A DNA stretch of 44,608 nt from Nitrospirota bacterium. Its GTDB lineage: Bacteria; Nitrospirota; 9FT-COMBO-42-15; HDB-SIOI813. The stretch lies in NCBI GenBank assembly GCA_020846775.1, contig JADLDG010000100.1, positions 1 through 44,608 of the forward strand. The letters run 5' to 3'. The notes beneath the pieces are model-generated. The model was not told the origin of the DNA. It ran no database searches and saw only the letters and a list, made by a program, of their open reading frames with translations. Positions 5,789 to 32,983 of the stretch are shown one piece after another (position 1 is the stretch's first letter; every line of letters begins with the position of its first letter). Both the position numbers and the translations under genes were made by a program.

Positions 5789-5801
5789 GGTACATGAAAA
5801 T

Positions 5802-5877
5802 AATCCCCCTTAATCCCCCTTTTTCAAAGGGGGAAATTAGTCACCGCACTTTAGAAAAGGGGGGCAGGGGGGATTTG
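5802..5877. repeat. Palindromic CCCCCTT element, copy 1 (between pilT and recX)
   Basis: A ~76-base element has inverted ends (AATCCCCCTTAATCCCCC at the left; GGGGGGCAGGGGGGATT at the right). Inside is a hairpin (CCCCCTTTTTCAAAGGGGG) and a decayed second hairpin ending AGAAAAGGGGGG. A near-identical copy is embedded in the hydrolase gene at 32256-32332. In the frame leading into recX this copy reads PLNPPFSKGEIS...LEKGGRGD, the same frame and almost the same peptide as the second copy. Whether this copy is translated depends on the recX start. Confidence 0.9.
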
Positions 5878-5892
5878 AAAGGCTATTTTCGG

Positions 5893-6375
5893 ATGAACCT
5901 TGATGAGAGCAGAAAGGCGAGAGATGCTGCCCTACGGCTGCTCGGATTATGTGACAGGAGTAAGAAGGATCTGACAGAGAGATTGATCAGGAAAGGTTTT
6001 TCAGCAGCAATAGCAGAGGCTGTCGCTGATGAAATGGAGTCCCTCGGGTACATTGATGACCGCCGGTTTGCCGAGAGGTTTGCTTCAGACGCTGTTAACA
6101 GAAGAGATGCTGGTCCGCAGATGATAAGCTCAGGATTGCAGAAAAAAGGGATAGCAAGAGACATAATTGACGATATCCTCATGAAGGTATCAAATGACTA
6201 TGCACAGGCTGATATAGCCCGGAGGGCCCTTGGCAGGAGGTTGAGGATCGGGAGTGTCCCAAGGGAAAGGGCTGAGATCAGGAGGCTGTCAGATTACCTT
6301 AGACGAAGAGGTTTCTCATATGATATTATTAGAGGTGTTTTAAAGGGGATAGAACAGGATGACAACATCAGCTGA
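5893..6375 (+). CDS. recX: Regulatory protein RecX
   Basis: RecX binds and modulates RecA filaments. From ATG 5893 the protein has 160 residues, normal for the family, with the three-helix tandem repeats visible: LLGLCDRSKKDLTERLIRKG, then MESLGYIDDRRFAERF (the hallmark motif), then a C-terminal YLRRRGFSYDIIRGVLKG. The same frame is open upstream to ATG 5776, but that extension translates the palindromic element at 5802-5877. The internal start is therefore preferred, although only a weak GAAAGG (5877-5882) precedes it. It overlaps alaS by 17 bases. Confidence 0.88.
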   Translation: MNLDESRKARDAALRLLGLCDRSKKDLTERLIRKGFSAAIAEAVADEMESLGYIDDRRFAERFASDAVNRRDAGPQMISSGLQKKGIARDIIDDILMKVSNDYAQADIARRALGRRLRIGSVPRERAEIRRLSDYLRRRGFSYDIIRGVLKGIEQDDNIS

Positions 6376-14909: not shown

Positions 14910-15827
14910 ATGGATGGGGGTCAGGTCTTGAATTTTGACTATAAAAGTCAAAAATCAAGACCTGACCCCGCCATTGTGGATATGTCGCCAGATATTACGA
15001 GAATAATAGACTCAGCCCTATCAGAAGATATCGGTCATGGTGATATTACCTCATCCATACTTATCCCGGATGACATAATTGCCATAGGAATGCTAATTGC
15101 GGAGGACGATATTGTATTAGCCGGACTTCCCGTTGCAGCTGAGGTGTTTAAACAACTCGACAAGGATGCAGTTTTTGATGGGCTTGCATCAGACGGGGAC
15201 TTGATAAAAGCCGGGAGTGTCATCGCTCGTGTATCCGGTAAAGGCAGAGCGCTCCTCTCAGCGGAGAGGGTCGCCCTCAATTTTCTGCAGAGACTCTCAG
15301 GAATTTCTACACTATCAAGAAGGTATGCAGATGCAGTAATGGGACTGCCAGTACGTATCTCAGATACCAGAAAGACAACCCCCGGGCTGAGGCCCCTGGA
15401 GAAATATGCAGTAAGGGCTGGAGGTTGCTTTAATCACAGGTATGGTTTATTTGATAGTGTCCTTATCAAGGAAAATCATATAGCATTAACTTCAGGGGTG
15501 GAAAAGGCTGTTTCAATGGCGAAAATAAACAGCCCTCACACCATGAAGGTTGAGGTCGAAGTAAAAACCCTGGATGAGGTCAAGGTTGCTGTAATGTGTG
15601 AGGCAGATATAATAATGCTTGATAACATGGATATTTCAATGATGCGGGAGGCTGTCAGGATTATACGGGAGAATAATGACAGAAAGATACTGATCGAGGC
15701 TTCAGGAGGGATGAGTCTTGACAGGGTGAGGGATGTCGCACTGACAGGTGTGGATATTATATCTGTCGGGGCACTTACACATGCAGCGGCATGGGTTAAT
15801 ATAAGCATGGATATTGAGATGAAATGA
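14910..15827 (+). CDS. nadC: Nicotinate-nucleotide pyrophosphorylase (quinolinate phosphoribosyltransferase)
   Basis: NadC makes nicotinate mononucleotide from quinolinate and PRPP in de novo NAD synthesis. Motifs are ALSEDIGHGDITSS, SAERVALNFLQRLSGI, DTRKTTPGLRPLEKYAV, GLFDSVLIKENHI, KVEVEVKTLDE and IEASGGMSLDRVRD. From ATG 14910 the product has 305 residues; homologues normally start near MSPDITRIIDSAL, encoded from ATG 14982 (281 residues). The extra N-terminal ~20 residues are the translation of a palindromic repeat (14917-14969). TAAGGA just before 14910 is the only ribosome-binding site visible, which favours the longer form. It overlaps birA by 4 bases (ATGA). Confidence 0.93.
   Translation: MDGGQVLNFDYKSQKSRPDPAIVDMSPDITRIIDSALSEDIGHGDITSSILIPDDIIAIGMLIAEDDIVLAGLPVAAEVFKQLDKDAVFDGLASDGDLIKAGSVIARVSGKGRALLSAERVALNFLQRLSGISTLSRRYADAVMGLPVRISDTRKTTPGLRPLEKYAVRAGGCFNHRYGLFDSVLIKENHIALTSGVEKAVSMAKINSPHTMKVEVEVKTLDEVKVAVMCEADIIMLDNMDISMMREAVRIIRENNDRKILIEASGGMSLDRVRDVALTGVDIISVGALTHAAAWVNISMDIEMK
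14917..14969. repeat. GGGGTCAGGTCTTGA palindrome at the 5' end of nadC
   Basis: Two 24-base arms (14917-14940 and 14946-14969) are inverted copies with one mismatch around a 5-base loop (ATAAA). The left arm begins GGGGTCAGGTCTTGAATTTT. The sequence resembles REP-type palindromes mobilised by RAYT/IS200-like transposases; no such transposase is in the window. It lies between the nadC ribosome-binding site/ATG 14910 and the conserved NadC N terminus, in frame. Confidence 0.92.
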
Positions 15828-24748: not shown

Positions 24749-24774
24749 TGGGAACTTGTGATTGGAGGAAATGA

Positions 24775-25575
24775 TTGGGCTTCACTGACGATCAGATAAA
24801 GCGGTACAGCAGGCATATAATCCTGCCTGAGGTTGGAGGGAAGGGGCAGAAGAAGATAGGCCAATCCAGGGTATTGGTAATTGGCGCCGGTGGACTCGGT
24901 TCACCAGCGGCATACTATCTTGCCGCTGCGGGTATCGGAGTTCTTGGTATAATTGATGGTGATGTCGTTGATCTCTCAAATTTACAGAGGCAGATAATCC
25001 ATCAGACATCCGACATTGATAAGCCAAAGGTAATTTCTGCAAAGGAGAAAATCGAGGCGTTAAATCCGGATGTAGAGGTAAAAACATATCATGAACTCCT
25101 GACCTCTCATAATGCATTAAGCCTTTTTAAAGAGTATGATGTTATTCTGGATGGCACTGATAATTTTCCGGCAAAATTTTTAGCTAATGATGCAGCCGTC
25201 TTTACTGGTAAGCCGCTCGTACATGGCGGGATATTGAGGTTTGTCGGCCAGATTATGTCTATTGTACCCCATGAGACCGCCTGCTACAGGTGCGTTTTTA
25301 ATAGCCCGCCTCCCCCTGGTCTGATACCGACTTGTCAGGAGGCTGGAGTGGTTGGTGTGCTTGCCGGGGTAGTGGGGACTATACAGGCAACAGAGGTGTT
25401 AAAATTAATATTGAATATCGGGGAACCACTCAAAGACAGATTGATGACCTTCGATGCCAGCAAGATGGAATTCAGGGAAATCAAGATTAAGAGAAATCTA
25501 AAGTGCCCGGTATGCGGTGAAAATCCCACGATTAAAGAATTGATAGATTATGAACAAGAAGTCTGCAACATCTGA
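24775..25575 (+). CDS. MoeB/ThiF-family sulfur-carrier adenylyltransferase 1
   Basis: An E1-like enzyme of 266 residues that adenylates the C-terminal glycine of a ThiS/MoaD-type carrier. Visible are the nucleotide loop GAGGLG (37-42), NLQRQ (69-73), the zinc cysteines CYRC (170-173) and CPVC (244-247), and the crossover Cys187 in TCQEAGV. It lacks a rhodanese domain. It starts at TTG 24775 with GGAGG at 24764-24768; an ATG at 24771 is out of frame. The protein is a close paralogue of the one at 27463-28269. Its 3' end overlaps the next gene by 26 bases. Confidence 0.92.
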   Translation: MGFTDDQIKRYSRHIILPEVGGKGQKKIGQSRVLVIGAGGLGSPAAYYLAAAGIGVLGIIDGDVVDLSNLQRQIIHQTSDIDKPKVISAKEKIEALNPDVEVKTYHELLTSHNALSLFKEYDVILDGTDNFPAKFLANDAAVFTGKPLVHGGILRFVGQIMSIVPHETACYRCVFNSPPPPGLIPTCQEAGVVGVLAGVVGTIQATEVLKLILNIGEPLKDRLMTFDASKMEFREIKIKRNLKCPVCGENPTIKELIDYEQEVCNI

Positions 25576-27437: not shown

Positions 27438-27462
27438 ACTGGCAAGAGAGGGAAGATGATTA

Positions 27463-28269
27463 ATGGATTTTACTGAGGATCAGATTAAGCGCTACAGCAG
27501 GCACATTATCCTTTCTGAGGTTGGAGGTAAGGGGCAGGAGAAGCTCTGTGAATCTAAAGTCTTTATTACCGGTGCAGGAGGACTTGGATCACCTGTAGCC
27601 TTGTATCTTGCTGCAGCTGGAATTGGCACTATCGGAATAATAGATGACGATGTTGTTGACATGTCGAATCTTCAGAGACAGATCCTGCATTCGATGAAGA
27701 CAATTGATAAGCCTAAGGTAGAATCAGCAAAGATGACTTTAGAGGCCATAAATCCTGATGTTAAGGTTATTCCTTACAGGGAGAGGTTATCTTCGGCAAA
27801 TATAATGGATATAATCAAGGATTATGACCTTGTGCTTGACGGGTCAGATAACTTTCCCACAAGGTTTCTTGTAAATGATGCATGTTTTTTTAGTAAAAAA
27901 ACACTTATATCCGGTAGTATCTTCCGGTTTGAAGGGCAGGTGACTACGCTTAAGCCTCATGATGGTCATCCATGCTACAGGTGTCTCTATCCTGAGCCGC
28001 CACCACCTGGTCTTGTGCCAAGTTGTCAGGAGGCCGGTGTCCTTGGCGTACTTGCCGGTACTGTCGGAGTAATCCAGGCGACTGAGGCAGTTAAGGAAGT
28101 GCTTGGAATGGGTAGTTCGCTTGCGTCTCACTTGTTGATTTATGATGCCCTTGGTATGAAGTTTCTCAAGGTAAAGACCCAGAAAGACCCCAACTGCTTC
28201 CTGTGCGGAAAAGAGCAAAAGATTACTGAGTTGATGGACTACGAGCAGAGCTGCACACTTAAAATATAA
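27463..28269 (+). CDS. MoeB/ThiF-family sulfur-carrier adenylyltransferase 2
   Basis: A 268-residue paralogue of the enzyme at 24775-25575. N-terminal segments are nearly the same (FT-DQIKRYSRHIIL-EVGGKGQ). It keeps GAGGLGSP, NLQRQ, zinc cysteines CYRC and CFLC, and SCQEAGVLGVLAG. Divergence is greatest in the substrate-facing middle (SIFRFEGQVTTLKP versus GILRFVGQIMSIVP), which fits recognition of different carriers. ATG 27463 follows GAGGGAAG. The stop codon TAA lies inside the left arm of a perfect palindrome (28266-28331). Confidence 0.92.
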   Translation: MDFTEDQIKRYSRHIILSEVGGKGQEKLCESKVFITGAGGLGSPVALYLAAAGIGTIGIIDDDVVDMSNLQRQILHSMKTIDKPKVESAKMTLEAINPDVKVIPYRERLSSANIMDIIKDYDLVLDGSDNFPTRFLVNDACFFSKKTLISGSIFRFEGQVTTLKPHDGHPCYRCLYPEPPPPGLVPSCQEAGVLGVLAGTVGVIQATEAVKEVLGMGSSLASHLLIYDALGMKFLKVKTQKDPNCFLCGKEQKITELMDYEQSCTLKI

Positions 28270-28331
28270 TAAATAGGGACAGCGACTATTTATTATATTT
28301 CAAATAAATAGTCGCTGTCCCTATTTATTAT
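28266..28331. repeat. AATAGGGACAGCGACTATTT palindrome between moeB-2 and the JAMM gene
   Basis: Two perfect 29-base inverted arms (28266-28294 and 28303-28331) flank an 8-base loop. The left arm contains the stop codon of the upstream gene (28267-28269), and the last two bases of the right arm are the A and T of the next gene's ATG. The core resembles REP-type palindromes spread by RAYT transposases. In RNA it would form a very stable hairpin; lacking a U tract, it is not a classical terminator. Confidence 0.93.
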
Positions 28332-28728
28332 GCTAAAAGTTCCTTCCAATATTTCCAGTGCCATGCTTGAACATGCAAAGACTGATTTTCCCCTTGAGTG
28401 TTGCGGAATACTTGGAGGTAAGGGTGATGAGGCAACACACATCTACCGCATGAGAAATATTGACAAATCCAAAGTAACTTACCTTATGGACCCGGCTGAG
28501 CAGATGAAGGTTTTTAAAGAGATGAGGAGTCTTGGGATAGAATTGAAGGCTATATACCATTCTCATCCCAACCATCCTGCCTTACCTTCACGAACAGATG
28601 TTGAACTCGCCTACTATCCTGAAGCGGTCTATATTATTATCTCGATAAATGACAGCAAGGAAACAAAGATCGGCAGTTTCAATATAGTGGATAAAAATAT
28701 TACAATAGCAGAAATAGACATTCAGTAG
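28330..28728 (+). CDS. JAMM/Mov34 (M67) metalloprotease
   Basis: A 132-residue zinc protease of the Mec+/QbsD class. Catalytic residues are visible: Glu23 (PLECCGIL), the zinc ligands His77 and His79, and Ser87 with Asp90 (HSHPNHPALPSRTD). Relatives remove C-terminal residues beyond Gly-Gly of sulfur carriers or release cysteine from a CysO-Cys adduct. Both jobs fit this locus, where one carrier has a LYE tail and the other is CysO-like. There is no ribosome-binding site: the bases upstream of the ATG belong to the palindrome, so translation may depend on ribosomes finishing the upstream gene. Confidence 0.9.
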   Translation: MLKVPSNISSAMLEHAKTDFPLECCGILGGKGDEATHIYRMRNIDKSKVTYLMDPAEQMKVFKEMRSLGIELKAIYHSHPNHPALPSRTDVELAYYPEAVYIIISINDSKETKIGSFNIVDKNITIAEIDIQ

Positions 28729-31802: not shown

Positions 31803-32129
31803 ATGCCAAAGCCGAAATACCACATTGTTGTCTGCACAAACACCCGCCCACCGGGTCACCCGAAGGGTTCCTGCGGGGAGAGGGGGGCACAACCCGTTGT
31901 AATGAAATTTGCTGAAGAGATGGAGAAGAGAAATCTGTTTGGCAAGGTTGTGCTTAGCGGCTCTACGTGTGTAGGTGTGTGCAGCGCCGGAACGATTGTA
32001 ATTGTCTATCCTGACGCTGTATGGTATCAGGGGGTCAAACCTGAAAACGTTAATGAAATATTAGATCAGCATATTGAAAACGGAAAACCTGTGGAAAGGC
32101 TGGTACTTCAGGATAGTGCATGGGGATAA
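31803..32129 (+). CDS. Thioredoxin-like [2Fe-2S] ferredoxin
   Basis: A 108-residue protein of the thioredoxin-fold ferredoxin family. Four cysteines sit in the expected pattern: Cys11 (VVCTNTRPPGHPKGSCG), Cys24, Cys56 and Cys60 (STCVGVC). The C-terminal half (TIVIVYPDAVWYQGVKPENVNEILDQHI) is typical. It starts with a strong AGAGGAGGAAA site. The electron partner is not evident. It overlaps the following hydrolase gene by 10 bases, so they are co-translated. Confidence 0.9.
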   Translation: MPKPKYHIVVCTNTRPPGHPKGSCGERGAQPVVMKFAEEMEKRNLFGKVVLSGSTCVGVCSAGTIVIVYPDAVWYQGVKPENVNEILDQHIENGKPVERLVLQDSAWG

Positions 32130-32983
32130 TGAAAGTCCTGTTTCTCGGCTCAGGTACTTCTACGGGCGTGCCTGTAATTGGTTGTAAATGTGATGTTTGC
32201 AAGTCAGACGACCCGCGGAACAAGAGGACGCGGTCCTCAATACTCATAACTGCTGAAATCCCCCTTAATCCCCCTTTTTCAAAGGGGGAAATACGACTCC
32301 CCCCTTTAGAAAAGGGGGGTAAGGGGGGATTTGAAAGGGAAATTCCAAGTGATAAATATTTACTGGTTGACACAACGACAGACTTACGATCCCAGGCCCT
32401 GGCAAACCGTGTAGAAAGGGTAGATGCCGTTCTTTTTACGCATGCTCATGCTGACCACATCCATGGTATTGACGATCTCAGAAGCTTTAATCACATCCAG
32501 GGTAATCCTATCCCGTGTTATGGAGGTCTTGATACTATGGAAGTTATACGCCATAAATTCAGTTATATTTTCGATGGCTCCGCCAGACGTGACTGGGTCC
32601 CGAGACTCGAGGTTAATATTGTTGACAGCGAATTTTCTTTGTACGGTCTGAGGATATTACCATTAAAGATATTTCATGGAGAGTCAACCATACTTGGGTT
32701 CAGGATAAATGATGTCTCTTACCTTACTGACTGCAGTGGAATTCCTGATGATACAAAAAAGTTATTGATAGGAACTAAACTTCTTATATTGGATGCGACC
32801 CGTTACCAGCCTCATGCAAAGCACTATGGACTTGCACAGGCCATAGATGTAATAAAGGAGCTGAAGCCGGAGCGGGCACTACTCACACACCTTTCCCATG
32901 CATTTGATCACCATAAAGTCAATCACGAACTTCCGTCAGGTATTGAACTGGCGTATGATGGGATGGAGATTAGTCAGGGATAA
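32120..32983 (+). CDS. Metallo-beta-lactamase-fold hydrolase (PhnP-like) with in-frame repeat insertion
   Basis: A 287-residue MBL-fold phosphodiesterase-type hydrolase. It has FLGSGTSTGVPVIGCKCDVC, the metal motif THAHADHIHGIDDLR (His108, His110, Asp112, His113), KIFHGEST and LTHLSHAFDHHKV. Between the strands RTRSSILI and YLLVDTTTDLR it carries about 28 extra residues (46-74; PLNPPFSKGEIRLPPLEKGG...) encoded by a palindromic element. The insertion keeps the frame and falls where homologues have a short turn, so the protein is probably still active. Start 32120 has AGGA 7 bases upstream; 32129 is the alternative. Substrate unknown. Confidence 0.88.
   Translation: MGIMKVLFLGSGTSTGVPVIGCKCDVCKSDDPRNKRTRSSILITAEIPLNPPFSKGEIRLPPLEKGGKGGFEREIPSDKYLLVDTTTDLRSQALANRVERVDAVLFTHAHADHIHGIDDLRSFNHIQGNPIPCYGGLDTMEVIRHKFSYIFDGSARRDWVPRLEVNIVDSEFSLYGLRILPLKIFHGESTILGFRINDVSYLTDCSGIPDDTKKLLIGTKLLILDATRYQPHAKHYGLAQAIDVIKELKPERALLTHLSHAFDHHKVNHELPSGIELAYDGMEISQG
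32256..32332. repeat. Palindromic CCCCCTT element, copy 2 (inside the MBL-fold gene)
   Basis: A 77-base element with inverted ends AAATCCCCCTTAATCCCCC and GGGGGGTAAGGGGGGATTT. Two inner hairpins are intact: CCCCCTTTTTCAAAGGGGG and CCCCCCTTTAGAAAAGGGGGG. It can fold as a two-armed structure on a common stem. It is better preserved than copy 1 (5802-5877) and shares its reading frame. Confidence 0.93.

Follow-up and report, generated by a model that had tools for sequence, protein, structure and literature searches.

The insert and the question it raises

How does a long palindrome come to lie within a conserved enzyme gene that nevertheless remains open from end to end? The window, by which we mean the whole 44,608-nucleotide stretch analyzed (contig JADLDG010000100.1 of a Nitrospirota bacterium, assembly GCA_020846775.1), carries an uninterrupted 287-codon open reading frame (ORF) at positions 32120-32983 of the forward strand. 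This gene encodes an MBL-fold hydrolase of the PhnP family (NCBIfam NF038231-like), and its start at 32129 agrees with that of orthologues. An earlier note, prepared from the sequence alone, had placed a two-armed palindrome of 77 bases at 32256-32332 within this gene, and the sequence of that segment (AAATCCCCCTTAATCCCCCTTTTTCAAAGGGGGAAATACGACTCCCCCCTTTAGAAAAGGGGGGTAAGGGGGGATTT, forward strand) and the open frame around it bear this out. We propose, with a probability of roughly 0.75, that an uncultivated family of Nitrospirota harbors a mobile palindromic element that is non-autonomous, mainly selfish, and made nearly harmless by its own ends, and that the feature is one copy of it. The element has many copies, it is present or absent at the same site when the genomes of relatives are compared, its tail ends at true start codons, and in-frame copies occur in conserved proteins.

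The 77-bp core consists of two intrastrand-triplex motifs in inverted orientation, and both halves have the pyrimidine-purine-purine layout described for such motifs (PMC4666352). The left half (32256-32289; forward-strand letters AAATCCCCCTTAATCCCCCTTTTTCAAAGGGGGA) is a motif read on the reverse strand, and the right half (32299-32332, CCCCCCTTTAGAAAAGGGGGGTAAGGGGGGATTT) is one read on the forward strand, with a pattern match at 32299-32334 that has 0 mismatches. RNA folding of the palindrome yields a single long hairpin of -54.4 kcal/mol (z = -4.7), and 0 shuffles fold as well. The core of this copy has only one stop-free frame per strand. It is followed at 32333-32352 on the forward strand by a conserved 3′ tail, GAAAGGGAAATTCCAAGTGA, composed of an SD-like GAAAGG, a spacer, and RTGA, which would here be translated in frame as part of the enzyme. 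The last GTGA of this tail might belong either to the element or to its target.

Copies and anatomy of the element

We refer to the window's genome as G000 and to two genomes of the same genus as G001 and G002; L numbers denote loci. BLAST finds copies of the element in at least 41 places in the 2.73-Mb genome (one place being counted on both strands), and a half-unit pattern gives 91 matches there versus 0 for a reversed control pattern, recurrence that lies well outside what chance would give. With nhmmer, the genome stretches that were read yield 87 pieces, 41 of them full-length, where piece counts, like the RTGA background given below, refer to stretches around copies. A second copy in the window, with core and tail, lies at 5801-5896 on the forward strand. 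It ends at the start codon (ATG, 5893) of a recX-like gene, which immediately follows recA.

The right half fits the strict pyrimidine-purine-purine triplex pattern in 46 of 60 cases. The conserved tail after the core reads GAAAGG-n-TATTTTCGAGTGA (also written GAAAGG-n-TATTTtCgaGTGAA), an SD-like site plus start codon; its 20 nt comprise the GAAAGG, an A/T-rich spacer, and RTGA, and it ends in RTGA in 31 of the 41 full copies. On the left side, ATGA is found within 8 nt in 25/41 full copies, and 19/41 have an upstream ATGAGCC module, whose full form is ATGAGCC-GCG-GGCTCACAAAGGTACATGA. The sole candidate for an ATGAGCC module standing without a triplex core precedes a degenerate core, and an independent existence of the module was therefore rejected. 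A simple target-site duplication was likewise rejected because the left and right tetranucleotides of copies are often unequal, which also weighs against the mobile-element model. Some genes are preceded by stacked units, in which a module ending TATTTTCGGATGA is followed by the ATGAGCC module and then by the triplex unit, an arrangement that fits repeated strikes on whichever start codon is current. At five loci (L042, L048, L056, L068, and L146) copies run into another widespread repeat, GCTTGTCCTGAGCTTGTCGAAGG, to form chimeric elements.

Placement at start codons

The 3′ end is intact in 60 copies. Of these, 42 have an RTG at +15/16, and 30 of the 60 stop precisely where a downstream ORF begins. 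ORFs of 60 codons or more open at that RTG in 30/42 cases, compared with 21.5% of the 6,831 RTGA occurrences in the same stretches (P about 7e-12, for copies that are mutually related in sequence and host loci that are separate). For ORFs of at least 150 codons, the corresponding values are 28/42 and 11.2%. Most classifiable copies sit at start codons, to which, as judged from their sequences, they would supply an SD-like site and an RTG. A pattern search of the G000 MAG did not find the 16S 3′ end. Twenty of the 60 copies lie at neither a gene start nor in an open frame, which we count against the mobile-element model, as we do the finding that a leader ORF with a 4-nt overlap of the host start exists in only 5 of the 41 full copies. 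Another 6/41 form in-frame fusions with the host gene, and the remainder are in other phases.

We compared 20 start-site genes with their orthologues in G001, G002, and G004. In most cases the orthologue shares the first residue, generally encoded within ATGA, and in G002 and G004 it does so without any element (e.g., alr, aspS, ispD, recJ, cobA, murJ, apgM, rfbD, and gatC). The exceptions are uvrD, trpD, and ruvB, the last with an ATGC start that the element precedes by a few bases. In G001, aspS, ruvB, larC, cobA, and apgM bear the triplex element at their starts, and alr, lexA, hemC, murJ, rfbD, and hemG bear a different repeat that ends in the same tail. This second repeat, which contains CGTCATTCCCG-type palindromes, has 65 copies in G001 and 0 in G000, and for 12 of the 21 copies sampled the end coincides with the first codon of an ORF that is 60 codons or longer. 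Site-specific presence or absence also distinguishes G000 from G001 at, for example, recJ, gatC, recX, and trpD.

The shared tail invites the view that this segment, with its SD-like site, A/T-rich spacer, and RTGA, is a separate spreading module or a gene-start motif of the genus, into or beside which various palindromic repeats insert. The same tail does stand behind the unrelated CGTC-type repeat in G001, it caps two other triplex-like motifs (CCCTCCCCTTCAAGGGGAGGG-type) before genes in G000 (L340 and L345), and it also precedes a few genes in the absence of any such core (L336). We nonetheless consider this view unlikely. Copies within genes, including that in the window, retain the tail although no gene starts there, from which it follows that tail and core move together, and relatives that lack the element have other leaders.

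Less probable still is that the repeats are selected cis-regulatory elements of 5′UTRs, acting as leader peptides or hairpins for housekeeping and repair genes, with the intragenic copies being accidents. Exact placement where many housekeeping genes begin translation, the SD-like site in the tail, the stable hairpin, and the 4-nt overlap of some leader ORFs with the host start would all suit such a function. Set against them are the failure of the element to be conserved among relatives, even in the genus, the diversity of host genes, the variable phase of the leader ORF, and the occurrence of the element within enzymes as well as in places where no gene begins.

An empty site in the hydrolase gene

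The position of the insert in the hydrolase is occupied by a short turn in orthologues of the same family (G002, G004, G005, G006, G007, and G008) and in more distant ones. The orthologue alignment called for in the earlier note confirms the gap, with 15 of 16 aligned orthologues having a tight turn and no insert. Alignment with the empty-site DNA of G002 (L007) reveals a clean 93-nt insert (ATAACTACTG|GTGATAAATAT versus ATAACTGCTG[...]GTGATAAATAT), the missing segment being 32256-32348 on the forward strand. These 93 nt are made up of the 77-bp core and 16 nt of tail, and correspond to 31 codons rather than the approximately 28 residues first estimated. The frame is indeed kept by the 93-nt insert, but the 77-bp palindrome by itself would break it. 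Given this empty site and the conservation of the tail, we rejected the notion that the element comprises 77 bp only.

The sixteenth orthologue, that of G001 (L006), belongs to a second species of the genus and has an in-frame insert in the same beta-turn. This insert is an unrelated palindrome with GGGGACAGAATTTAATTCTGTCCCC and flanks, and the same turn of the gene has thus been struck twice. Extra residues in a second species might suggest a conserved structural or functional loop of a hydrolase subfamily instead of a repeat, yet this is scarcely credible and is refuted by the alignment, since the second insert is unrelated in sequence, the other 15 orthologues have a tight turn, the loop is modeled as disordered, and the same DNA recurs across the genome. 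An insertion conserved among orthologues as a structural element, the outcome that would have told against a mobile palindrome, did not occur.

Matches of the protein to NCBIfam MBL/PhnP models and to PhnP-family chains in the PDB run up to residue 44 and resume from 78, which agrees with the earlier note's statement that the flanks match normal homologues, and the orthologue alignment shows that all of the family's conserved metal-ligand residues are retained, as that note had also stated. An AlphaFold2 model of the product has a mean pLDDT of 87, and its nearest solved structures are PhnP-family hydrolases. The insert falls between strands 37-43 and 75-80, and most of it has a pLDDT below 50 (48-52 and 54-70), with the remaining fold confident. 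This structure prediction, another check proposed at the outset, indicates that the added residues form a disordered loop between two strands, and the insertion is probably neutral for the enzyme. We infer from the ORF that the insert is translated. Together, the orthologue gap, the genome-wide copies, and the model uphold the initial idea of a mobile palindrome residing in a tolerated in-frame loop.

Other copies in frame within genes

Four genomes together supplied approximately 152 pieces. Of these, 24 are embedded in an ORF that continues for 80 or more codons to either side (16 in sense and 8 in antisense orientation); the search favors open frames and is uninformative on the number of insertions lost. 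NCBIfam identifies the following in-frame hosts: polA and heptosyltransferase II; in G000, mutS, mfd, and a radical SAM protein; in G001, gcvT, ribD, and a P-type ATPase that holds two inserts; and in G003, uvrA and formate-THF ligase. The anmK gene, a host named from its sequence only, also carries an in-frame copy, and miaA and pheT have N-terminal extensions. The gene with two in-frame copies encodes a heavy-metal P-type ATPase and is located at L271 121-2628 in G001.

Relation to known repeats

The core recalls the G/C-rich intrastrand triplex motifs (TM/PIT) described by Holder et al. 2015 (PMC4666352), which have a pyrimidine-purine-purine layout and in E. coli include inverted pairs of two motif types. 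Each half of the element has this triplex layout, a likeness by which membership is assigned on sequence layout. Repeats of this type are plentiful across hundreds of bacterial genomes (PMC4666352), and there is no agreement on how they spread or what they do. Those in E. coli always lie between genes, at varying distances from ORFs, and are not linked to mobile elements (PMC4666352). In contrast, the element has a tail with an SD-like site and start codon, a fixed start placement at +15/16, and in-frame genic copies, although the intergenic, variably spaced location is a property of the E. coli collection and not of the TM motif itself. In-frame copies in conserved genes (polA, mutS, mfd, and anmK) and a conserved SD/start tail are new for this motif.

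The MIRU repeats of mycobacteria (Supply et al. 1997, as recounted in PMC12548453) are short mobile repeats at start codons that carry an ORF of their own, which can be coupled to the struck gene by a -4 overlap, and the gene stays expressed. They resemble the element, by description, in inserting at start codons in a way that would keep the gene expressed, and they differ from it in that -4 coupling is confined here to the 5/41 full copies noted above, in the palindromic triplex-type core, and in the additional copies inside genes. Strict MIRU-type coupling as a general rule was accordingly rejected.

The earlier note had likened the feature to Rickettsia palindromic elements (RPEs), which are reported to be palindromic, about 150 bp in length, and inserted in frame in unrelated genes, with a conserved encoded peptide and, in some families, CGTC ends (PMC10969869, PMC3733652). 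This comparison holds for behavior, in that insertion is in frame and host products are apparently functional, as suggested by the intact ligands of the hydrolase and by the reading frames of polA, mutS, and mfd, which are open throughout. It does not hold for membership, because in sequence the element pairs two TM/PIT triplex motifs; set beside the published description of RPEs, it differs in that its core is C/G-rich and 77 bp long, in that it ends in a start-codon tail, and in that it comes from another phylum. We see no evidence for kinship of the element to either MIRUs or RPEs, and the resemblance would appear to be one of behavior, the sequences having been compared by description.

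Intragenic GTAG/CGTC REPs (Di Nocera et al. 2013, PMC3733652) form dimers that encode 20-30 residues, and many of their hosts function in DNA synthesis and repair. The presence of the element in polA, mutS, mfd, and uvrA is similar. Its core differs in having no GTAG or CGTC tag, and the CGTC-type core in G001 ends in the same SD/start tail.

Distribution and implications

At least 117 stretches contain the half-unit, and they come from Nitrospirota, Chloroflexi, Deltaproteobacteria, Xanthomonadaceae, Acinetobacter, and others. A right half followed by ATTTGA is found in 35 of 148 sampled genomes of the phylum and in 10/10 of the window's own family. Tails are present in Nitrospirota relatives, and none was seen by eye among the listed loci from Chloroflexi, Lysobacter, Acinetobacter, and others. 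In G003, a copy of the repeat lies within about 200 bases of the end of many contigs, and copy numbers from draft genomes are therefore probably underestimates.

If triplex repeats here are mobile and have a well-defined right end, as we propose, then the question of their mobility becomes testable. Behaviors typical of triplex motifs, MIRUs, and RPEs meet in a single genome, and the repeat seems adapted to landing harmlessly in gene-dense DNA. A practical warning is that predicted N-termini, leader peptides, and internal loops in such genomes may derive from repeats.

A possible mechanism and the search for a mover

We infer that the element inserts beside RTGA, mostly at a start codon or a stop/start junction. 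Its right end would bring a new ribosome-binding site and RTG, so that translation of the struck gene could continue and a hit at a gene start would be nearly silent. A copy within a gene would survive only with a stop-free frame in phase and at a site that tolerates 25-35 added residues. The window copy would have entered in this manner the turn between two beta strands of the hydrolase. More tentatively, and at a little short of even odds, there might be a class of RTGA-targeting elements with a translation-start cassette on the right end and interchangeable cores (paired or single triplex motifs, or CGTC-type repeats), which stack such that each newcomer takes over initiation.

No mobilizing enzyme was found in the draft genome G000, from which the gene could be missing, and we count this result against the mobile-element model. 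Y1 transposase genes of REP/REPIN-RAYT systems are flanked by the repeats; the sole Y1_Tnp gene of G000 (L083 4676-5813, contig C24) is flanked by GGGGTCAGGTC palindromes and not by the element, and its candidacy as the mover is without support. With these flanking palindromes, the gene resembles TIR-associated tyrosine transposases with the motif GGGGWSAS (PMC3733652).

The window also contains other repeats. A strong palindrome at 14917-14969 (GGGGTCAGGTCTTGAATTTTGACT), unrelated to the element, matches those that flank the only Y1 transposase, and another strong palindrome at 28257-28340, which contains GGGACAGCGACTATTTATT, is likewise unrelated to the element. Finally, two diverged direct repeats at 24771-25396 and 27459-28087 (72% and 70% alike, spacing about 2690) probably represent a tandem gene duplication.
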